Under the pieces are notes generated by a model. The model worked only from the letters and a program-made list of their open reading frames with translations, ran no database searches and was not told the origin of the DNA. 64,000 nucleotides of DNA, from the NCBI GenBank assembly GCA_010671905.1, contig JAAHII010000001.1, positions 3,286,001-3,350,000 on the forward strand, written 5' to 3'. This DNA is from Leptolyngbya sp. SIOISBB. GTDB taxonomy: Bacteria > Cyanobacteriota > Cyanobacteriia > Phormidesmidales > Phormidesmidaceae. This document shows positions 20,753 through 30,534 of this stretch, one piece after another. Each line of letters begins with the position of its first letter. Position 1 is the stretch's first letter. A program made the translations under genes and the position numbers.

Positions 20753-20766
20753 GTATCATTGGTTAC
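20753..20766 (+). promoter_or_regulatory. Candidate NtcA box upstream of the guanidine riboswitch
   Basis: GTATCATTGGTTAC fits the NtcA consensus GTA-N8-TAC exactly. A candidate -10 hexamer AATAAT starts 24 bases downstream (20790-20795), the spacing of class II NtcA-activated promoters. Transcription would start near 20800, just ahead of the riboswitch aptamer. The match is short, so functional binding is an inference supported by position and by nitrogen-related cargo. Confidence 0.55.
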
Positions 20767-20848
20767 CGCAATCGACAAACGGACTCATGAATAATCCATC
20801 TCAGATTCGTCAATCCATCGCCTAGAGAGGGTGGTTAATTATTGAGCT

Positions 20849-20974
20849 TCTAGGGTTCCGGTTTCTCTGTGTTGGAGAGGTGTCTGGTCCGAGAGAAGCG
20901 GCTGATCAAGTGGCAACTTCAAGGTGTCCTCTTTGACTGATCAGTACACGGCGGGATAAAAGCCCGGGAGGTTT
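20849..20974 (+). ncRNA. Guanidine-I (ykkC class) riboswitch aptamer
   Basis: The conserved blocks of the ykkC guanidine-I aptamer occur in order: CTAGGGTTCCG at 20850, TGGTCCGAGAGAAGC near 20883, and ACACGGCGGGATAAAAGCCC near 20946. A P3-like stem pairs CTGATCA (20902) with TGATCAG (20936). The aptamer binds guanidinium. It sits about 90 bases upstream of a GdmH-type guanidine hydrolase gene, the known genetic context in cyanobacteria. An overlapping terminator stem follows. Confidence 0.93.
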
Positions 20975-21014
20975 AGCAGCACGCGATCGCGCTGTTTCCT
21001 CTCGGGCTTTTAGT
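20958..21014 (+). terminator. Riboswitch expression platform: conditional intrinsic terminator
   Basis: AAAAGCCCGGGAGG (20958) can pair with CCTCTCGGGCTTTT (20999-21012) to form a long GC-rich stem with an inner CAGC/GCTG helix and a terminal T-run. The left arm is also the conserved 3' end of the aptamer. Ligand binding should therefore hold it in the aptamer and prevent termination, an ON switch. The exclusive pairing is directly visible; the switching is inferred. Confidence 0.85.
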
Positions 21015-21064
21015 ATTGGGAAAACCGGGTGACCGGACAAGTGTATTGAGCAAAAGGAACGGCT

Positions 21065-22237
21065 ATGACAGACGAACCGACCTTCCGTAGGCCGAGTGAA
21101 GCAAATGAGGCTCTGGAAAAAGAAACGCGGCTCCCCATGACCGGCTGGCAGCAGGAAGTCGATCAGGGCTTGGAATATGGGTTGGAAGCGGCGGAGAGTA
21201 TTCGAGATCGCACCATTCCCACCTTTTCTCGGGGTGAACTGCCCCACTATGCGGGCATTAATACCTTTCTGAAAGCCCCTTACATCGAAGATGTGAGAAA
21301 TGTGGGCAATTACGATGTGGCGATCGTCGGTGTACCCCACGACTCTGGTACCACCTACCGTCCGGGCACCCGCTTCGGCCCTCAAGGCATTCGCAAAATT
21401 TCTGCGCTCTACACCCCCTACAATTTCGAGTTCGGCGTGGATCTACGAGAGCAGATCACCCTGTGCGATGTCGGTGATGTCTTCACCATTCCCGCTAATA
21501 ACGAAAAGTCCTTCGACCAGATTTCGAAAGGCATTGCCCATATCTTCAGTTCTGGGGCGTTCCCCATCATCCTCGGCGGTGACCACTCCATCGGCTTCCC
21601 CACCGTGCGGGGCGTGTGCCGTCATTTGGGCGATAAAAAAGTCGGCATCATCCACTTCGATCGCCACGTCGATACCCAAGAAACCGACCTCGACGAGCGG
21701 ATGCACACCTGTCCTTGGTTCCACGCCACCAACATGGAGAATGCGCCCGCCAAGAACCTAGTGCAGTTGGGAATTGGCGGTTGGCAGGTGCCGCGTCAGG
21801 GGGTCAAGGTCTGTCGCGAACGGGGTACCAACATTCTCACCGTCACTGACATTACTGAAATGGGGTTGGATGCTGCGGCTGATTTTGCGATCGAAAAAGC
21901 CACGGACGGCACTGATTGTGTCTGGATTAGCTTCGATATTGACTGCATTGATGCGGGCTTTGTCCCTGGCACCGGCTGGCCGGAACCTGGTGGCCTCATG
22001 CCTCGCGAAGCTCTGTACCTGCTCAAGCGCATCGTGCAGGAAACCACCGTTTGCGGCATCGAAGTTGTGGAAGTCTCCCCCCCTTATGACGTCAGCGACA
22101 TGACGGCCCTCATGGCGACCCGAGTCATTTGCGACACCATGGCTCACTTGGTGTTGTCAGGGCAGCTCCCTCGGCAGGAAAAGCCCAGTTACATTCATGC
22201 GGAAGCGAACATGAACGTTGATCAGGCGTGGGAGTAG
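21065..22237 (+). CDS. gdmH: Guanidine hydrolase (GdmH-type ureohydrolase)
   Basis: A ureohydrolase-fold enzyme of 390 aa. Metal ligands are visible as H174 (GGDHS), D199-H201-D203 (HFDRHVDTQ) and D291/D293 (SFDIDCID). The C-terminal site loop reads DAGFVPGTGWPEPGGL, and an N-terminal extension precedes the agmatinase-like core. Cyanobacterial members such as Synechocystis Sll1077, once annotated agmatinase, are nickel-dependent guanidine hydrolases giving urea and ammonia. The guanidine-I riboswitch upstream and HypA/HypB-like nickel chaperones downstream in the same operon make GdmH the best call. An AAAGGA ribosome site precedes the ATG. An ordinary agmatinase is the main alternative but fits the context poorly. 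Confidence 0.93.
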   Translation: MTDEPTFRRPSEANEALEKETRLPMTGWQQEVDQGLEYGLEAAESIRDRTIPTFSRGELPHYAGINTFLKAPYIEDVRNVGNYDVAIVGVPHDSGTTYRPGTRFGPQGIRKISALYTPYNFEFGVDLREQITLCDVGDVFTIPANNEKSFDQISKGIAHIFSSGAFPIILGGDHSIGFPTVRGVCRHLGDKKVGIIHFDRHVDTQETDLDERMHTCPWFHATNMENAPAKNLVQLGIGGWQVPRQGVKVCRERGTNILTVTDITEMGLDAAADFAIEKATDGTDCVWISFDIDCIDAGFVPGTGWPEPGGLMPREALYLLKRIVQETTVCGIEVVEVSPPYDVSDMTALMATRVICDTMAHLVLSGQLPRQEKPSYIHAEANMNVDQAWE

Positions 22238-22240
22238 GAC

Positions 22241-22609
22241 ATGCACGAAACCGACATGACCAAAGCGCTGATCATGACGATTCGGGAATGGCGAGACTCA
22301 CAGCCAGAGAAGCCCCCGGTGGAGCGTGTTTTCCTCACTGTGGGGCAATTCACCTGTGTGGAACCAGCCAGTTTGCAGTTCGCGTTTGAGGTGCAGACCC
22401 GAGGCACGTTTTTGGATGGGGCTGAATTGATCATCCAAGAGACGCCGCTGATCGCTTTTTGCCATACCTGTCAGGCGGAATATCGACCCGAAATGGGACT
22501 GCAATATGCCTGCCCTACCTGCAGATCGCCCCTCGATGACATTCGCTCTGGTCGCGAACTGAAAATCGATCGCGTCCAATACGCGACCTCTTCTGCCCCG
22601 ATACCCTGA
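22241..22609 (+). CDS. ghaA: HypA-like nickel chaperone for GdmH
   Basis: The 122-residue protein begins MHE, the nickel-binding N-terminus of HypA, and carries a zinc site of two pairs (CHTC and CPTC) near residues 75-95. HypA delivers nickel with HypB. It starts 3 bases after gdmH, so translation is coupled. No hydrogenase structural genes are in the window. Homologues clustered with gdmH are known accessory proteins for loading nickel into the guanidine hydrolase, so I infer that role rather than hydrogenase maturation. Confidence 0.9.
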   Translation: MHETDMTKALIMTIREWRDSQPEKPPVERVFLTVGQFTCVEPASLQFAFEVQTRGTFLDGAELIIQETPLIAFCHTCQAEYRPEMGLQYACPTCRSPLDDIRSGRELKIDRVQYATSSAPIP

Positions 22610-22680
22610 CTCGGTTATGTCAGCGTTCGTCCAGGTTCGGCCTGCTGAATTTCTGATCCTTCACCGTTCACTTCCTCGCT

Positions 22681-24042
22681 ATGTCCACGCAAGTCGTTTC
22701 CGAAATCGCTAGTCTCAAATCTTCCCTAGAGTCTCAGGGAGTCAGATATGCGTTGGCGAGTTATGTCGACATTCACGGCATGTCGAAGGCGAAGATGGTA
22801 CCGCTGAGCCATCTGGGACAAATGATGCAAGGGTCAGAACTCTTTACTGGTGCAGCTCTGGATGGTGTGCCTCAAGACATTAGCGATGAAGAAGTGGCGG
22901 CGCTGCCTGATCCGCAGTCAGCCACCATCCTGCCCTGGAACAAACAAGTTGTCTGGTTCGCCAGTGATCTCTATCTCTCTGGACAACCCTTTGAAGCCTG
23001 CTGTCGCAGCATCTTAAAACGCACGTTGGATAAGGCGGCGAGCCTAGGATTCACCTTTAATCTGGGCATAGAGACCGAATTCTTTGTCTTTAAGGAAACT
23101 GAAGGCGGCGGCTTTGAACCGATTAGCGATCGCGACACCTTAGCTAAACCCTGTTACGACCTGACGGGGCTGCTCGACAACTACAGTTGGTTGACTGAGC
23201 TGGTGGAGGCCATGAACCACCTGGGCTGGGATGTATATTCCTTTGATCATGAGGATGCTAACGGTCAGTTTGAGACCGACTTTGCCTATGCCGATGCGCT
23301 GACGATGAGCGATCGCCTCACCTTTTTTCGGTTGATGGCGAAAGAAATCGCCCGTAAACACGGCTATTTTGCCAGCTTTATGCCGAAACCCTTTGCCAAC
23401 CGCACTGGTAGCGGTGCGCATTACAACATGTCGCTCGCTGATATGGAATCGGGCAAAAATCTCTTTGAAGATCGCACCGATCCACGCGGCTGCCAGCTGT
23501 CTCAACTGGGTTATCAATTTCTCGCGGGTATTTTGCGCCATGCCCCCGCCATTTGTGCTGTTACCTGCCCTACTGTCAATAGCTACAAACGGTTGGTTCG
23601 TAAGGGCAGCATGTCAGGCTTTACCTGGGCACCGGTATATATTTGCTACGGCAACAATAACCGTACCAACATGCTCCGGATTCCTTTGGCCGGTGGGCGA
23701 GTGGAGTGTCGAGCGGCGGATATTGCCACGAATCTCTATCTCGGGGCAGCCATGATTTTGGCGGCGGGGTTAGAGGGGATTGAGCAGGGCCTCGACCCGG
23801 GCGAGCCCCATACCGAAAACATGTACAACTACACCCTGCCAGAACTGGATGCTATGGGCATCGATCTGCTACCGCGAAACTTGCAAGAGGCGATCGATGC
23901 TTTTGAGCGTGATCCCCTGAGCGCTGCAGTGATGGGGCCATTGATGTATCGCACCTATACCGATTTCAAACGCCAAGAATGGGAGGAGTATCACACCCAC
24001 ATTTCTGACTGGGAGCATCAACGCTATCTGAAATTTTTCTGA
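22681..24042 (+). CDS. glnT: GlnT-type (type III-like) glutamine synthetase
   Basis: A glutamine synthetase-fold ligase of 453 aa with the metal motif GIETEFFVF, NGQFETDF, the ATP-site sequence SGAHYNMSL, and NNRTNMLRI near the substrate arginine. It belongs to the GlnT branch, which includes glutamine synthetases and gamma-glutamylmethylamide synthetases, rather than the housekeeping GlnA. It lies within the guanidine operon between the nickel chaperone genes. It could capture the ammonia released by GdmH. Because this branch accepts other amines, an amine or guanidino substrate cannot be excluded. Substrate identity is therefore inference. Confidence 0.85.
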   Translation: MSTQVVSEIASLKSSLESQGVRYALASYVDIHGMSKAKMVPLSHLGQMMQGSELFTGAALDGVPQDISDEEVAALPDPQSATILPWNKQVVWFASDLYLSGQPFEACCRSILKRTLDKAASLGFTFNLGIETEFFVFKETEGGGFEPISDRDTLAKPCYDLTGLLDNYSWLTELVEAMNHLGWDVYSFDHEDANGQFETDFAYADALTMSDRLTFFRLMAKEIARKHGYFASFMPKPFANRTGSGAHYNMSLADMESGKNLFEDRTDPRGCQLSQLGYQFLAGILRHAPAICAVTCPTVNSYKRLVRKGSMSGFTWAPVYICYGNNNRTNMLRIPLAGGRVECRAADIATNLYLGAAMILAAGLEGIEQGLDPGEPHTENMYNYTLPELDAMGIDLLPRNLQEAIDAFERDPLSAAVMGPLMYRTYTDFKRQEWEEYHTHISDWEHQRYLKFF

Positions 24043-24059
24043 CCCCCGCTAGCCTGTAC

Positions 24060-24079
24060 GGGCGCACGGCCGTGCGCCC
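24060..24079. repeat. 20-bp palindromic REP-like repeat
   Basis: GGGCGCACGGCCGTGCGCCC is a perfect palindrome in the gap between glnT and ghaB. A sister copy (GGGCGCAAGGCCTTGCGCCC) is at 30646-30665. It may act as a transcript hairpin within the operon. Confidence 0.75.
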
Positions 24080-24096
24080 CAACCCTTACAAAAACC

Positions 24097-24786
24097 ATGC
24101 ACCAAATCATCGACGAATCCCTTGGCATTAATCTGCTCCACGCGAATCAAGAAGGAGCCGACCACAATCGCGCTCACTTCGACGAATGGGGTATTACCTG
24201 CCTCAACCTCATGAGCAGCCCCGGCGCGGGTAAAACTGCCCTGCTCGAAAAGACCCTCGCTAGTCTCACCGATGACCTTAACATGGCCGTCATCGAAGGC
24301 GATATGACCACTGAGTTAGATGCCGATCGCCTCCGCCAATACAACGTCCCCGTCATCGCTATCAATACGGGCCGTGCCTGCCATCTGGATGCGCGCATGG
24401 TGGCTGGCGGTATTCATACCCTGTCCCATGACTACACCCCCGCCGATCTGGATCTGGTCATTGTCGAAAACGTCGGCAATCTCGTTTGCCCCGCTGAGTT
24501 TGAAGTGGGTGAACATGCCAAGGTGGCGTTGCTTAGCGTCACCGAAGGGGAAGACAAGCCGCTGAAATATCCCGTCATGTTCCGGGAGGCAGATGTGCTT
24601 TTGATTACAAAAATTGATCTCGCTCCCTACTTAGATGTGGACTTAGAGCGCATTGAAGCCAATGTGCGTCAAATTAATCCCCACGTCACCGTGATTCCCG
24701 TGTCTGCCAAAACGGAAGCTGGATTAGAGAGCTGGTTCGACTGGGTGCAGTCCGCTGTGAAGTCCCCTGCTTTGACTTCTGCTTAA
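24097..24786 (+). CDS. ghaB: HypB-like nickel-insertion GTPase for GdmH
   Basis: A SIMIBI-class GTPase of 229 aa: P-loop [14 protein letters not shown], switch region [12 protein letters not shown], conserved GRACHLDA (metal-binding Cys-His at the dimer interface), [12 protein letters not shown] and the base-specific TKID. It lacks the long histidine-rich N-terminus of some HypB proteins. HypB uses GTP hydrolysis to drive nickel transfer. Together with the HypA-like gene in the same operon it is predicted to load nickel into GdmH. glnT separates it from ghaA. Confidence 0.9.
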
Positions 24787-24831
24787 CGAAGTTCGTTGCT
24801 CTTTAGTTGTGTTCACTCTCTAGAAAAAACT

Positions 24832-25884
24832 ATGAAACGTCGTTCCATTTTGCCAGTCTTGCTGGCTTTCTTTTCTACCTTATTCATTACCTTTAGCTGC
24901 GCTCAACAGCCCACGGATACCGGCACTGCCGAAGACCCGGCACCGGAAACGGCAGCGCTCATTAATGAGGAGCCCATCGTGATGGGCTATAGCAGTTGGG
25001 CGGGTTGGTGGCCCTGGGCGATCGCTGAAGCTGAAGGGCTGTTCGAAGCCAATGGTGTCAACGTCAATCTCATCTGGTTCGATGGCTATCTAGAGTCGAT
25101 GCAGGCGCTCGCTTCTGGTCAGCTCGATGCCAATTGCCAAACCCTCAACGACACTATTTCCTTTGCGGGTGAAGCAGTGAATGGTGAAGTTGCCGTGGTT
25201 GTTAACGATAACTCTGCTGGTAACGATAAGGTGATCGTCGCCCCCGACATCAATACTGTAGAAGACTTAGTCGGCAAGTCTGTGGCCCTTGAAGAAGGCG
25301 TTGTCGGCGACTTCTTATTAACCCTGGCGCTAGAAGATGCGGGTCTGTCTCGTGAAGACGTCAATGTTGAAAACCTGGAAACTGGCGCTGCTGCGGCTGC
25401 CTTTGCCGCTGGTCAGGCTGACGGTTTCGCTGGCTGGGTACCCTTTTGGGAAACGGCGCTATCCCGCGAAGGTAGCAAAGAACTGACCAGTTCTGCTGAC
25501 TTCCCTGGGGCGATTCCGGATTTGCTGGTGGTCACGCAAATCCTGATTGATGAACAGCCTGAGGTGGTGCAAGCCCTGGTCAATACCTGGTTCGACATTC
25601 TGGCTTTCATCGACGACAACCAAGAACGCGCCTACGAAATCATGGCCGATCGCGCCAGCGTCAGTGCCGAAGATTTTGAACGCTATCTCGAAGGCACCCG
25701 CTTCTTCACCCTAGAAGACAACTTAGAAGCCTTTACTCCCGGCGACAGCATGGTGCACATGCCCTTTGCCGCTGAGGAAATGGCGGACTTCATGGTGGGA
25801 GTCGGCTTCATTCCCGAAGCGCCTGATTTAGAAGCGGTGTTAGATGACCAGTTTGTCACTGCATATGCGGACGCGGCGGCGTAG
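24832..25884 (+). CDS. ABC transporter substrate-binding lipoprotein (NMT1/SsuA-like)
   Basis: The N-terminus is a lipoprotein signal (MKRRSILPVLLAFFSTLF then FSCAQQ with Cys as lipid anchor). The mature part is a periplasmic type II binding protein of the nitrate/sulfonate/taurine (NMT1) family: MGYSSWAGWWPWAIAEAEGL, ALASGQLDANC, EDLVGKSVALEEG, GQADGFAGWVPFWE. The abundant Trp and acidic residues suit a small cationic ligand. Placed behind gdmH and its chaperones, it probably binds guanidine or a guanidino compound, which is inference. The ATG at 24832 is chosen over an upstream in-frame start at 24796 that would spoil the signal peptide. Confidence 0.88.
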   Translation: MKRRSILPVLLAFFSTLFITFSCAQQPTDTGTAEDPAPETAALINEEPIVMGYSSWAGWWPWAIAEAEGLFEANGVNVNLIWFDGYLESMQALASGQLDANCQTLNDTISFAGEAVNGEVAVVVNDNSAGNDKVIVAPDINTVEDLVGKSVALEEGVVGDFLLTLALEDAGLSREDVNVENLETGAAAAAFAAGQADGFAGWVPFWETALSREGSKELTSSADFPGAIPDLLVVTQILIDEQPEVVQALVNTWFDILAFIDDNQERAYEIMADRASVSAEDFERYLEGTRFFTLEDNLEAFTPGDSMVHMPFAAEEMADFMVGVGFIPEAPDLEAVLDDQFVTAYADAAA

Positions 25885-25895
25885 CGAGATATGAA

Positions 25896-26013
25896 GGTAG
25901 CAGGGTCTGAGGGTGGAAGGGTATGAGAGTCGACCATAAGGACACACGGCAACCATCGTTTCTCCCCATTCACCCAACCACCCTGCTACTCAGCTACCCG
26001 ACCACCCTGCTAC
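25896..26013. repeat. Inverted GTAGCAGGGT repeat cluster, no coding capacity
   Basis: GGTAGCAGGGT at 25896 is mirrored by two ACCCTGCTAC copies ending at 25990 and 26013, with related GGGTGGAAGGGTATGAG and CACCCAACC around them. It fills most of the gap between the binding-protein and permease genes. The same motifs form the arms around the four-helix-bundle gene at 26907-27405, so this may be a non-coding relative of that element. Confidence 0.55.
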
Positions 26014-26055
26014 TAAATTGGAAACTCTCAACCTAACCTCTCTCAAGGTCTCACC

Positions 26056-26904
26056 ATGACGGTTATCCCCTCGTCATCCACATATTCAGAGTCGCCGACG
26101 ACAGCCCAAAGTCTGAAACCCACAGTCTTTTGGCGCATTGCTGAAGACATTCCCAAAAACCTGAAATGGGTCTTGATGGTGATGTCAGTGCTGGTGCCGT
26201 TTTTACTGTGGTGGGCGATCGCCAGCACGGGTTGGGTTGATCCCAAGTTCTTGCCGACACCAGGGATGGTCGGGGCCGCACTGGTGAATTTAGGCCAGGA
26301 GGGCTATTTGCTGACCGATACCTTAGCGAGTTTTTTGCGGGTATCGGCAGGCTTTTTGCTAGCAGCGTTAGCCGCGATTCCCTTAGGAATTGGCATGGGA
26401 GCTTTTCGTAGCGTGCGATCGCTGACGGAACCCCTAGTCGGCATCGTGCGCTATATGCCGGCGCCAGCCTTCATTCCCCTGTTGGTCATTTACCTGGGCT
26501 TGGGTGAAGAACCGAAAGTTGCCCTGATTTTCATTGGCACCGTGTTTTTCAACACGCTGATGATTATGGATGCAGTCAAGTTTGTGCCCAAAGAGCTGAT
26601 TGAGACGACCTATACCTTGGGAGGCGATCGCCGCCAAGTGCTGCTACAAGTCATTACCCCTTACGTCGTCCCCAGCATCTTCGACACTCTACGCGTTAAC
26701 ATGGCCGCCTCTTGGAATCTGGTCATCGTCGCCGAACTCGTCGCTGCCGATAGTGGCCTTGGTAAACGTATCGCTCTATCCCAAAAATTCTTTCAGACTG
26801 ACGATATCTTTGCCTGTCTGATTGTGCTCGGCCTCATTGGTTTCATCCTTGATCTATCCCTGCAAGCGGCGATGCGGATGACCTGTAAATGGGCGGTGAA
26901 GTAG
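26056..26904 (+). CDS. ABC transporter permease (SsuC/TauC-like)
   Basis: A 282-residue integral membrane permease of the BPD_transp_1 family with about six helices. The coupling EAA-like loop is seen around LIETTYTLGGDRRQVLLQVITPYVVPSIFDTLR, with NMAASWNLVIVAELVAADSGLGKRI after it (quoted in part). This subfamily pairs with NMT1-type binding proteins. The ATG at 26056 matches the expected N-terminus. It belongs to the guanidine-linked importer, although an antisense element separates it from its ATPase gene. Confidence 0.9.
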   Translation: MTVIPSSSTYSESPTTAQSLKPTVFWRIAEDIPKNLKWVLMVMSVLVPFLLWWAIASTGWVDPKFLPTPGMVGAALVNLGQEGYLLTDTLASFLRVSAGFLLAALAAIPLGIGMGAFRSVRSLTEPLVGIVRYMPAPAFIPLLVIYLGLGEEPKVALIFIGTVFFNTLMIMDAVKFVPKELIETTYTLGGDRRQVLLQVITPYVVPSIFDTLRVNMAASWNLVIVAELVAADSGLGKRIALSQKFFQTDDIFACLIVLGLIGFILDLSLQAAMRMTCKWAVK

Positions 26905-26906
26905 GA

Positions 26907-27405
26907 GTGGCAGAGTATGAGGGTAGTTGGGTAGCAGGGTGAACGAGTTACTGGACAATCCATTGAGAAGCGTTTTTGACCATATTGGCAAGCTGCCCCA
27001 ACACCTGGTCATAGTTGCGATAAAGGTGTCTAGCCTCTTGAGGGTGAAGATACCGACATTTCACAGAAAATTCGAGCCAAATTTGGGTTTCGGTCGCTTC
27101 GGCTTGGCAGTCATACAATTTGGCAATAAAGGCTGCACGATACCGCCGTCTACGCCAAACTTCGCCTAAGTTGGCACACACCGATCGTGAAGACCGTCGA
27201 ATCTGATCCGTTAACGAATACCGTTCCTCTACTGGAAAACGCTTAGACACTTCAAAGATTTCCATCGCAGACGTAAACGCTGTCTGATATACCTCTAAAT
27301 CTCGATATACCCTGACCATTTCCTTGCCCATACACCTGCAACTCATATGGATAAATACCTCCAGAATTCCCGCTCTGCGACCCAATCACCCTGCCACCCT
27401 GCCAC
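26907..27405. mobile_element. Putative element: four-helix-bundle gene flanked by inverted repeats
   Basis: Two 34-base arms, GTGGCAGAGTATGAGGGTAG and onward at 26907-26940 and the inverse ending GCCACCCTGCCAC at 27405, match at about 25 of the 33 positions compared by eye. They enclose a single minus-strand gene. The unit interrupts the spacing between ABC permease and ATPase genes that normally adjoin. Arm motifs recur at 25896-26013 and 47661-47693. No transposase is visible, so mobility is an inference. Confidence 0.5.
26948..27319 (-). CDS. Four-helix bundle protein (S23/IVS family)
   Basis: This 123-residue protein matches the family first seen in 23S rRNA intervening sequences: RVYRDLEVYQTAFTSAMEIFEVSKRFP, then EERYSLTDQIRRSSRSVCANLGEV (quoted in part), and a late helix with AEATETQIWLEF. 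The family folds as a four-helix bundle, related to the Avd protein of diversity-generating retroelements, and usually has no known role. Starts at 27331 or 27319 are both possible. It is antisense to the surrounding ABC operon and enclosed by inverted repeats. No reverse transcriptase or variable repeat is present nearby. Confidence 0.85.
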   Translation of the reverse strand: MVRVYRDLEVYQTAFTSAMEIFEVSKRFPVEERYSLTDQIRRSSRSVCANLGEVWRRRRYRAAFIAKLYDCQAEATETQIWLEFSVKCRYLHPQEARHLYRNYDQVLGQLANMVKNASQWIVQ

Positions 27406-27422
27406 CTAATTACTCCCCCGCT

Positions 27423-28196
27423 ATGCACCTCGAAATTGTCAAGGTTTACAAACAGTTCGACACGCCTCAAGGGCCATTAGTCGCTCTGAAGGACATCAAC
27501 ATGCATGTCGAAACCGGGGAATTTGTCTGTGCTGTCGGCGCGTCGGGGTCGGGGAAATCGACGCTGCTGAGGTTAGTGGCAGGGCTAGAGATGCCGACTG
27601 CTGGGGAAATCACAGTGGATGGTCAATCTGTGATTGGGCCAGGGGCCGATCGCGGCATGGTCTTTCAGAGCTATACGCTATATCCCTGGATGACGGTGCA
27701 GGAGAATGTGGAGTTTGGGCTCAAGCTTCAGGGGATGGAGGCGAAGCAGCGGCGGGAAGAAGCCTCTCGTTATTTGGAAGTGGTGGGGCTGGCACAGTTT
27801 TCGCGATCGCTGCCCAAGGAACTGTCTGGCGGTATGAAACAACGGGTCGCGATCGCTCGGGCCTTGGCCAACCATCCCAAAATTCTGCTGATGGACGAAC
27901 CCTTTGGCGCGCTGGATGTGCAAACCAAAGAGACCATGCAAGAATTTCTGCTGGAATTATGGGATCGCCTCGGCATCAGCATTTTGATGATTACCCACGA
28001 TGTGAGTGAAGCCGTTTTTCTGTCTGAGCGAGTGTATGTTTTATCGGCTCGTCCTGGCACCATTCGGCAGGAGGTCACGATCGATCTGGGCCATCATCGC
28101 GCCTATCAAGTGCGCCGTACGCCCCAGTTTCATCATCACTGCGACGAAATTATGGATCTGCTGCGAGGCACAGCGATCGGTTCCATGCCACAGTAA
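27423..28196 (+). CDS. ABC transporter ATP-binding protein (SsuB/TauB-like)
   Basis: ATPase of 257 aa with Walker A GASGSGKST, Q-loop MVFQSYTLYPW, signature LSGGMKQRVAIARAL, Walker B ILLMDEPFGALD and switch histidine ITHDVSEAV. It is of the nitrate/sulfonate/taurine class and would power import through the permease at 26056. The ATG at 27423 is chosen; an in-frame start at 27324 would read through repeat DNA. It is about 500 bases from the permease because of the inserted four-helix-bundle element. It may be expressed by read-through or from its own promoter. Confidence 0.92.
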   Translation: MHLEIVKVYKQFDTPQGPLVALKDINMHVETGEFVCAVGASGSGKSTLLRLVAGLEMPTAGEITVDGQSVIGPGADRGMVFQSYTLYPWMTVQENVEFGLKLQGMEAKQRREEASRYLEVVGLAQFSRSLPKELSGGMKQRVAIARALANHPKILLMDEPFGALDVQTKETMQEFLLELWDRLGISILMITHDVSEAVFLSERVYVLSARPGTIRQEVTIDLGHHRAYQVRRTPQFHHHCDEIMDLLRGTAIGSMPQ

Positions 28197-28370: not shown

Positions 28371-30534
28371 GTGCATTGCTCTCCCATGCTGCTCTCTTTT
28401 CTGACTGACGTAAACCGCAGCCTTAGCAAATTCTTTGCTGGCCACCGCACCAGTCGGCTTGCCCAACTACTGGGAGCTATTTTCGGCCTGATGCTGGTCT
28501 GCGTATTGCAGGGTTTGCCTAGTGTTCAGGCGGCTCCAGCGATCAATATCGCTCGCCCAACGTGGGATACCGGCTGGTTTCAAGCAGAGGTGTATCGAGA
28601 GCTATTAGGGCAACTGGGGTATGCGGTGAATGCGCCCAAGACCCTCAGCAATGAACAATTTTATGAGCAGGCTGCCGCTGGGGAGATGGATCTGTGGGCC
28701 AGTGGCTGGTTTCCACTCCACGATCGCTACCTAGAACAACCCAACATTGCTGGAGTCGTTGAACCGGTGGGTTTTGAGGTGCCGGGAGGGGCTTTGCAGG
28801 GGTATCTCGTCGATAAAGTGACGGCTGAACAGTTCAACATTCAGAGCCTGGCTGATTTGACGCGGCCCGAAGTGATGGCAGCGTTGGATAGCAACGGCAA
28901 TGGTAAAGCTGATTTAATTGGCTGCAATACTGGTTGGGCCTGCGCTGAGGTCATTGATTATCACTTACAGGAATATGGCTTGGGCGATGCTGTAGAGCAT
29001 ATTCAAGGGGACTATTCGCCGTTGATGGCAGCTGCCATTGCTCGTCAGCAGCAGGGAGAGGCGATTTTGTTCTACACCTGGACACCCAACTGGACGGCCA
29101 ACGAATTGCCGCCCGGTGAAGATGTGGTGTGGATCGAAGTGCCCTATGCCAGTCTGCCGCCTGATCAAAAAGCGCTGGAAAGTGAAACTGTGATGACGGG
29201 GATCACCGGCTGCGTGGCGGATCCTTGTACGTTGGGGTTTCCTCGCAACGACATTCGGGCGGTGGCGAATAGCGAGTTTTTGGAGGCAAATCCGGCTGTG
29301 CGATCGCTGCTCGAACAGGTCACCATTCCCCTAGCCGACATCGCGACTCAAAACGCCCTCATGCTCTCAGGGCAGGGAGATGAAGATGATATTCGTCATC
29401 ATGCCCAGGACTGGATCGCGGCCAATCGCGCTACCGTGGATGACTGGTTAGCCACTGCCCGAGCCGCAGGCGAGATTTCGCCATCGGTTTCAGCCGCACC
29501 TGTGGCGTCGCCCCTCGTGCCCCCGCCATTAGAGCCGGTACGCATCGTCACGCAGCGCTTTGAGCCCTTCGTAACCTATGAGAATCAAGCCTATCAAGGG
29601 TTTAGCATCGACCTCTGGCAGGCGATCGCCCGCGAGCTGAACCTCGATTACGAGCTAGTGGGTGTTAACTCGGTGGCCAAATTGCTGGATGAAGTCGAGC
29701 GAGGGGCCGCTGACCTGGCGATCGCGGGGATTGGCATCACGTCTCAGCGCGAAGAACGACTCGACTTTTCTTATCCGTATTATGAATCGGGCCTGCAAGT
29801 CTTGGTGCCCAGCGACCAGAGTGAACTCGGGAAGCTGCTATCGGTGATTGGCGCGGTGCTGCGATCGCCCCGGCTGTACTACGGCATCGGCATTCTCATT
29901 CTCATTTTGCTGATTGTTGCGCACCTGCTGTGGCTGTCGGAACGCAACCACAACCATCAGTTTCCCGATGATTATTGGCATGGTATCTGGGAAGCGTTTT
30001 TGGTGGGCAGCGGTGACGGTGACGACGGTGGGCTATGGCGACAAAGTGCCCAAACGCGCAGCCGGTCGCTTTTTTGGCCTGATTTGGATGTTTTCAGGCT
30101 ATTTTGTGTTTGCTTACTTTACCGCCAGTATTGCGACCACTTTTACAGTGCAAGAACTGCAGGGGGGGATTAACGGTCTCGAAGATCTACCCGGTAAGCG
30201 AGTGGCGACTGTCGCCGAAAGTCCTGCCGCCGAGTTTCTCGATAGTCAAACCAATCTGCTGTTTCGGGACTACAGTACCCTGGAAGCGTTGTACATCGCG
30301 GTGGAAGACGGCAACGAGGTGGATGCCGTCGTCTATGATGCGCCAGTGCTGCAATATTTTGTCACGCATCAAGGACAGGGGCGCTACCAAGTTGTGGGCG
30401 ATGTTTTTCAATCTTTGGACTATGGCATTGCGCTACAGCCCAACAGTCCCTATCGAGAGGCGATCAATGCGGCGTTGCTCAGGCTGTATGAGACGGGCCA
30501 GTACGAGGAAATTTATCAAGAGTGGTTTGGCTAA
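28371..30534 (+). pseudogene. ProX + GluR0-like ligand-gated channel fusion, frameshifted
   Basis: Residues about 1-55 are a signal peptide. About 56-375 are a ProX/OpuAC-type quaternary-amine binding domain (ARPTWDTGWFQAEVYREL). From 388 a GluR0-like receptor begins: the first lobe of an SBP_bac_3 domain, helix M1 at about 502-523, then pore and M2, then the second lobe. A T5 run at 29997-30001 holds one base too many. Before it the frame ends 600 codons after the start. After it the +1 frame continues TVTTVGYGDKVP (K+ selectivity filter), M2 and the closing lobe to 30534. Joined, the product would be 720 aa. The start is GTG at 28371 or ATG at 28386. Sequencing error, phase variation and true decay all remain possible. 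Confidence 0.85.

Follow-up and report, generated by a model that had tools for sequence, protein, structure and literature searches.

A distinct glutamine-synthetase-like ligase in a cyanobacterial guanidine operon

Why should an operon for the breakdown of guanidine carry a relative of glutamine synthetase? The question is raised by a stretch of 64,000 nucleotides from the cyanobacterium Leptolyngbya sp. SIOISBB (contig JAAHII010000001.1, positions 3,286,001 to 3,350,000), which we call the window. In it a guanidine-I riboswitch leads a guanidine hydrolase gene (gdmH), genes for the nickel loaders HypA and HypB, the three genes of an ABC importer and, between hypA and hypB, a ligase gene that we call GS3. 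An earlier note, made from the letters of this DNA alone, held the whole locus to be notable. Its gene order and reading frames are the same as ours, the locus is real, and it is not a product of chance because other cyanobacteria have these genes side by side as well. However, the riboswitch and six genes form an operon that is already known, and the seventh gene, the ligase, is the new element and the part that matters. We believe that the locus is likely to be the known cyanobacterial GdmH-type operon for guanidine assimilation joined by a ligase for guanidine itself or for an amine that comes from a substituted one.

The ligase and its amine pocket

GS3 passes the cut-off of TIGR03105, "type III glutamate--ammonia ligase". 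Among solved structures its best relative is the glutamate--methylamine ligase 9qur (427 bits), followed by RhGmaS 7cql (336) and then by glutamine synthetases, none of which exceeds 264. A profile search of solved structures likewise places 7cql and 9qur at the top, but it is not independent, since the alignment behind it (A2) held two rows with the GmaS signature.

The residues that handle the amine are more telling than the scores. GmaS is described as lacking the aspartate that handles ammonium in glutamine synthetase, with Ala48' in its place, and the glutamate of the Glu-flap, replaced by Trp300 (PMC7948447). We aligned 109 rows, 88 from the GS3 subfamily and 14 with the GmaS signature among the rest. 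In all 88 GS3 rows position 48 is Thr and position 300 is Trp, where an ammonia-using glutamine synthetase would have Asp50' and the flap glutamate, and all 88 keep the catalytic Asp177, Glu186 and Arg312 of GmaS. GS3 thus shares with GmaS (7cql and 9qur) its sequence family, its catalytic residues and the loss of both ammonium-handling residues. It differs in its linkage to guanidine riboswitches and importers and in the amine pocket, which sits between subunits. There Ser175 and Asp188, which are Ser187 and Asp200 of GS3 itself, are found in every GS3 row, against Gln and Asn in the 14 GmaS-signature rows. The 88 rows also form a single clade with SH-aLRT 100, to which none of the GmaS, methylamine-ligase or glutamine-synthetase rows belongs, although several of those outside rows are long-branched and their own placement is unsure. 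Plain membership in GmaS is rejected on these grounds, the changes at 175 and 188 and the separate clade.

The window comes from a genome of 8.3 Mb, that of a cyanobacterium which its closest GS3 relatives would place near Halomicronema, and this genome encodes further members of the wider family. One of them, a paralogue of GS3 (L173; gene at L196:7702-9057), has the residues typical of GmaS, and another, L174, keeps the ammonium aspartate and reads as GlnA-like.

The company the ligase keeps

Our phylum sample comprised 386 cyanobacterial genomes, in which gdmH was counted at E 1e-60 or better and GS3 at E <= 1e-150. gdmH occurs in 59 of them. GS3 occurs in seven, every time inside the gdmH operon, lying between hypA and hypB in the genus of the window (the window and G170) and after hypB in five genomes of family f20, which are picocyanobacteria-like by gene content. 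To account for the "gdmH operon" label, the GS3 tree requires four or more gains or losses, with 25 ungrouped rows left uncounted.

A wider set came from one contig scan with two peptide patterns, from which the best 80 of 399 relatives were taken, so the rates below describe near relatives and not the whole family. Fifty of these loci are cyanobacterial and 30 proteobacterial. Cyanobacteria with GS3 include the tractable Leptolyngbya PCC 6406 and Nodosilinea PCC 7104. A guanidine-I pattern is present in half of the cyanobacterial loci (25/50), against 0.8% per locus expected by chance assuming three aptamers per 6 Mb; in 17 it lies upstream and on the same strand. The pattern has no match on reversed DNA. 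It agrees with Rfam at all 22 GS3 loci that were put to both, loci picked mostly for an existing pattern match, of which 20 have guanidine-I above the gathering threshold (the exceptions are L126 and L138).

In the eight Nodosilinea-type loci (L097-L104), each with its aptamer above gathering, GS3 comes immediately after the aptamer and importer genes come next. A Rieske oxygenase follows the importer in seven, and the stretch of the eighth (L098) ends early. gdmH with an aptamer of its own lies elsewhere in all seven genomes searched, a set from which that of L099 was left out. No importer gene was detected in the fetched gdmH stretches of five of these seven (L175-L179), in which hypA and hypB follow gdmH. 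GS3 also occurs in genomes where the search found no gdmH. Among 38 genomes with a GS3 locus gdmH was found in 20, and 16 of the other 18 have a guanidine-I aptamer above cut-off, though some of these are small and perhaps incomplete assemblies.

In four loci (L107, L109, L117, L123) the aptamer leads an ATPase gene, a binding-protein gene and GS3. In three of the four, creatininase-family or metallo-beta-lactamase-fold genes stand between these, and in L109 an isochorismatase-family gene comes after GS3. The search of the L107 and L109 genomes found no gdmH. The same four and L127 are guanidine-I operons with a different importer class. Of these five, L107, L109, L117 and L127 have genes of the creatininase or metallo-beta-lactamase kind, in the last of them after gdmH-hypA-hypB. 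L118 has tandem GS3 genes (L118:8559 and L118:10001) behind a creatininase-family gene.

Other loci recall the guanidine carboxylase gene sets. Genes for UAAP1/2, which we take to be the subunits of carboxyguanidine deiminase, lie about 4 to 6.5 kb from GS3 or nearer in L105, L113, L141 and L152, the last two of which also have guanidine-II. UAAP matches in L118 and L136 were set aside as weak (23 to 34% identity). Two pseudomonad loci were tested, and in both the gene that follows GS3 encodes a "urea carboxylase region" binding protein (TIGR03427, 526 and 520 bits, cut-off 333.9). Among the 30 proteobacterial loci, 28 have a binding protein of that class as the top match in the neighbourhood of GS3. 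Control by guanidine-I or -II and an NMT1-type importer are common to the window operon and the carboxylase gene sets, and GS3 relatives lie near some of the latter. The difference is that the window operon has GdmH in their place, and that none of the operon's own seven genes belongs to the carboxylase pathway.

GS3 turns up repeatedly after guanidine riboswitches and next to importers of the guanidine type, whether GdmH is present or not, and for this reason its most likely acceptor is guanidine or an amine that comes from a substituted guanidine. The same recurrence across loci weakens the idea of a chance insertion.

Several observations weigh against this conclusion. GS3 is rare among gdmH operons (7/59). 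The aptamer pattern matches in only three of the 30 proteobacterial loci, and one of those matches (L171) is almost 10 kb off. In 24 of the 50 cyanobacterial loci the fetched DNA, several times a short contig, has neither pattern nor gdmH nor a clear UAAP gene, a count that falls to 22 if the two weak UAAP matches are admitted. In L126, where gdmH, GS3 and importer are all present, no aptamer reaches the threshold, and in L110, L113, L116, L119, L121 and L122 the aptamer lies downstream of GS3, before the binding protein. A GS3 clade of 12 rows, nine of them beside a GATase gene, is without the guanidine-I pattern in the fetched DNA, and its members are often near a GmaS-signature gene and what read as iron alcohol dehydrogenase and aldehyde dehydrogenase genes; the subfamily may therefore serve another amine too. 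Finally, an ordinary glutamine synthetase, 7tdv, likewise has Asp at 188 and a small residue at 175, so the pocket residues are no proof of a guanidine pocket.

The operon around it

The features of the window are collected in Table 1. That a ykkC guanidine-I aptamer stands upstream of gdmH had been proposed from the letters, and the covariance model finds it at full length, as the sole Rfam match at gathering threshold in the whole window (cmscan, E 3.6e-13). In the fold of 20839-21030 a strong hairpin uses the 3' end of the aptamer as its 5' arm, which suggests a terminator relieved by guanidine. Against this, the hairpin has only four terminal U and is not among the matches of a consensus terminator scan, so we infer the switching step. 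The same genome has a second guanidine-I aptamer (86.2 bits; L091:8924-9038, G000:C1:240923) with a sodium:solute symporter gene behind it (PF00474, L091:9147-10649), a pair that recurs in L182, L183, L184 and L185. The symporter is a candidate ion-coupled guanidine transporter.

Table 1. Features of the guanidine operon and its surroundings, in window positions
Feature	Position	Strand	Basis
Guanidine-I (ykkC) riboswitch aptamer	20839-20972	+	RF00442, 82.4 bits, gathering 63, model 1-107 of 107
Terminator-like hairpin, putative ON-switch expression platform	20957-21012	+	minimum-energy fold of 20839-21030; 5' arm is aptamer 3' end
gdmH, Ni-dependent guanidine hydrolase by homology	21065-22237	+	836.8 bits to 7esr/7oi1 (Synechocystis GdmH)
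hypA-type nickel metallochaperone (GhaA-like)	22241-22609	+	TIGR00100, 117.7 bits, cut-off 88.1
GS3, glutamine-synthetase-like gamma-glutamyl ligase, distinct subfamily related to GmaS	22681-24042	+	TIGR03105, 582.7 bits, cut-off 469.6
hypB-type nickel GTPase (GhaB-like)	24097-24786	+	TIGR00073, 310.8 bits, cut-off 121.2
NMT1/SsuA-type substrate-binding protein, probable guanidine binder	24832-25884	+	SsuA_fam, 255.5 bits, cut-off 163.5
ABC importer permease	26056-26904	+	PF00528 (BPD_transp_1), 85.4 bits
Antisense four-helix-bundle open reading frame, between permease and ATPase	26948-27385	-	PF05635, TIGR02436
ABC importer ATPase	27423-28196	+	PF00005 (ABC_tran), 120.4 bits; start is the ATG after the antisense frame
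ProX/OpuAC-type binding domain fused to GluR0-like ligand-gated channel	28371-30534	+	directly after operon

The hydrolase belongs to the Arginase family (PF00491). Its match to the Synechocystis GdmH structures runs end to end, the Nitrospira guanidinase 9fek follows at 584.2 bits, and the best other ureohydrolase reaches 174.4. Alignment to 7esr shows that it keeps Thr97 and Trp305 (Synechocystis numbering), the residues described as setting guanidine specificity (PMC11410670). By score it stands nearer the guanidinases than either the agmatinases or the arginases, which supports the GdmH-type identity given in the earlier note. It also narrowly exceeds the agmatinase cut-off (TIGR01230, 178.5 against 174.3), a small excess that repeats the old annotation of Synechocystis GdmH (sll1077), initially taken for an agmatinase (PMC8390497). 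In two genomes of one genus the gdmH match is partial, in two pieces in L086 and in L087 confined to the last 175 residues with an internal TAG, which suggests gene decay. The operon does have its own HypA and HypB, of the kind named GhaA and GhaB (PMC12930504). A second hypA and hypB adjoin a gene that reads as hypE-like elsewhere in the genome, the second HypB being 51% identical. A urease alpha gene lies at C1:3487698, about 180 kb from gdmH.

The importer has a binding protein, permease and ATPase homologous to those of sll1080-1082, in a guanidine-I operon. The earlier note saw in it a guanidine importer, which agrees with its class, described as guanidine-importing in Synechocystis (PMC12186494, PMC12930504). 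We infer guanidine import by the operon's transporter from homology and synteny. The binding protein begins with what reads as a lipobox-like N-terminus and stays below the TIGR03427 cut-off (141.9 bits against 333.9). It has no close relative among solved chains, the best being a taurine-binding protein at 47.7 bits.

Conservation of this operon is broad. In the 58 other gdmH loci, counting matches of at least 40 bits anywhere in the fetched stretch, we find hypA in 56, hypB in 52, the binding protein in 44, the permease in 45 and the ATPase in 49. The complete set, each gene above 40% identity, is present in 40 of the 58, and a guanidine-I pattern lies within 1.5 kb upstream of gdmH in 51. 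In Synechocystis sp. PCC 6803 the same operon, sll1077-sll1082, is described with its guanidine-I riboswitch, GdmH, HypA, HypB, binding protein, permease and ATPase (PMC8390497, PMC12186494). Among the genes named in the accessible portions of those papers there is no glutamine-synthetase-like one, whereas the window has GS3 between hypA and hypB and an antisense frame splitting permease from ATPase. Similarly, the picocyanobacterial cluster (Pro-eCAG_004, Syn-eCAG_001) is described as comprising speB2/gdmH, hypA, hypB, a TauABC-like importer and a ykkC riboswitch, with a Rieske protein next in most Synechococcus and Cyanobium genomes (PMC10119275). Glutamine synthetase is not a term in the main text of that paper, yet the five f20 loci have GS3 after hypB.

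In guanidine operons the importer is often followed by a Rieske oxygenase related to the glycine betaine monooxygenase GbcA, whether or not GS3 is present (L097, L099-L104, L105, L126, L051, L055, L061, L064, L067, L070, L073, L075, L076, L078-L082), and in L105 the oxygenase sits upstream of GS3. The antisense frame of the window, which the earlier note does not list, has a matching stretch at the same place in L092 but none in L094. The ProX/OpuAC-GluR0-like frame after the operon is broken near the channel pore (open reading frames 28371-30173 and 29914-30534).

Which amine does the ligase use?

By our reading guanidine would bind the aptamer, assigned to its class by model match, and so relieve the terminator-like hairpin. 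The ABC importer would then take up guanidine, HypA and HypB would load nickel into GdmH as their characterised relatives do, and GdmH would split guanidine into urea and ammonia, a breakdown that the distant urease could complete. GS3 would form a gamma-glutamyl bond, very probably with something other than ammonia as its main amine. Our ranking of the acceptors puts guanidine about level with methylamine or another alkylamine, with ammonia the least supported.

An alkylamine released from substituted guanidines, glutamylated in the manner of GmaS, is a possibility that we hold only tentatively. The nearest solved relatives, 9qur and 7cql, argue for it, and GbcA-type Rieske oxygenases, which dealkylate amines, follow the importer in many guanidine operons. 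But the methylamine pocket differs at two positions throughout the subfamily, the genome encodes in L173 another protein with the GmaS residues intact, and the window has no match to the Rieske queries within 9 kb downstream of gdmH.

That GS3 joins glutamate to guanidine itself, yielding gamma-glutamylguanidine, is a conjecture we would call doubtful taken alone, but its consequences are of interest. Acylation would lower the basicity of the guanidine group, an effect that carboxylation has in the carboxylase pathway, and this would be a further route for handling guanidine. Chemically, gamma-glutamylguanidine would be an acylguanidine, as creatinine is in cyclic form, and biuret belongs to the acylureas. 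Near GS3, operons without gdmH have enzymes of the creatininase family and others like biuret hydrolase; these would fit such chemistry and would act on acylguanidine or acylurea intermediates.

The capture of ammonia released from guanidine, which the earlier note offered as a possible role for its GlnT-type ligase, we regard as improbable. The breakdown of guanidine frees three ammonia, the "glutamate--ammonia ligase" cut-off is passed, and RhGmaS is described as taking ammonium, though at a much higher Km (PMC7948447). However, both ammonium-handling residues are gone from all 88 rows, the genome has the GlnA-like L174 that keeps the ammonium aspartate, and GS3 is found in guanidine-I operons of genomes where gdmH was not. 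Least probable is that GS3 is an unrelated hitch-hiker caught in the operon, for although it is present in only seven of 59 gdmH loci and its position varies, its tree needs those repeated gains or losses of the operon context, eight loci have the aptamer directly before it, and it lies near three classes of binding protein.

Three fates of free guanidine are described, export, the carboxylase pathway and guanidinase (PMC12186494). The accessible portions of PMC12930504 and PMC11018352 draw no link between a glutamine synthetase and a guanidine operon, and the main texts of PMC12186494, PMC11410670, PMC8390497, PMC10119275 and PMC12508155 nowhere use the term glutamine synthetase. Our literature search, in a collection of papers without Funck 2022, Nelson 2017 or Itzenhauser 2025, whose figures or tables may already mention the ligase, returned nothing on glutamylguanidine or a guanidine ligase, on a guanidine riboswitch together with creatininase, or on guanidine carboxylase together with glutamine synthetase.

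It is important to realize that GS3 matches an annotation model for a glutamate--ammonia ligase even though its amine is probably another. Its recurrence near guanidine genes in cyanobacteria and pseudomonads points either to a conversion of guanidine that has gone unrecognised or to unrecognised natural guanidine derivatives on which these bacteria feed. Either answer would bear on where guanidine comes from in nature and on what guanidine riboswitches are for.

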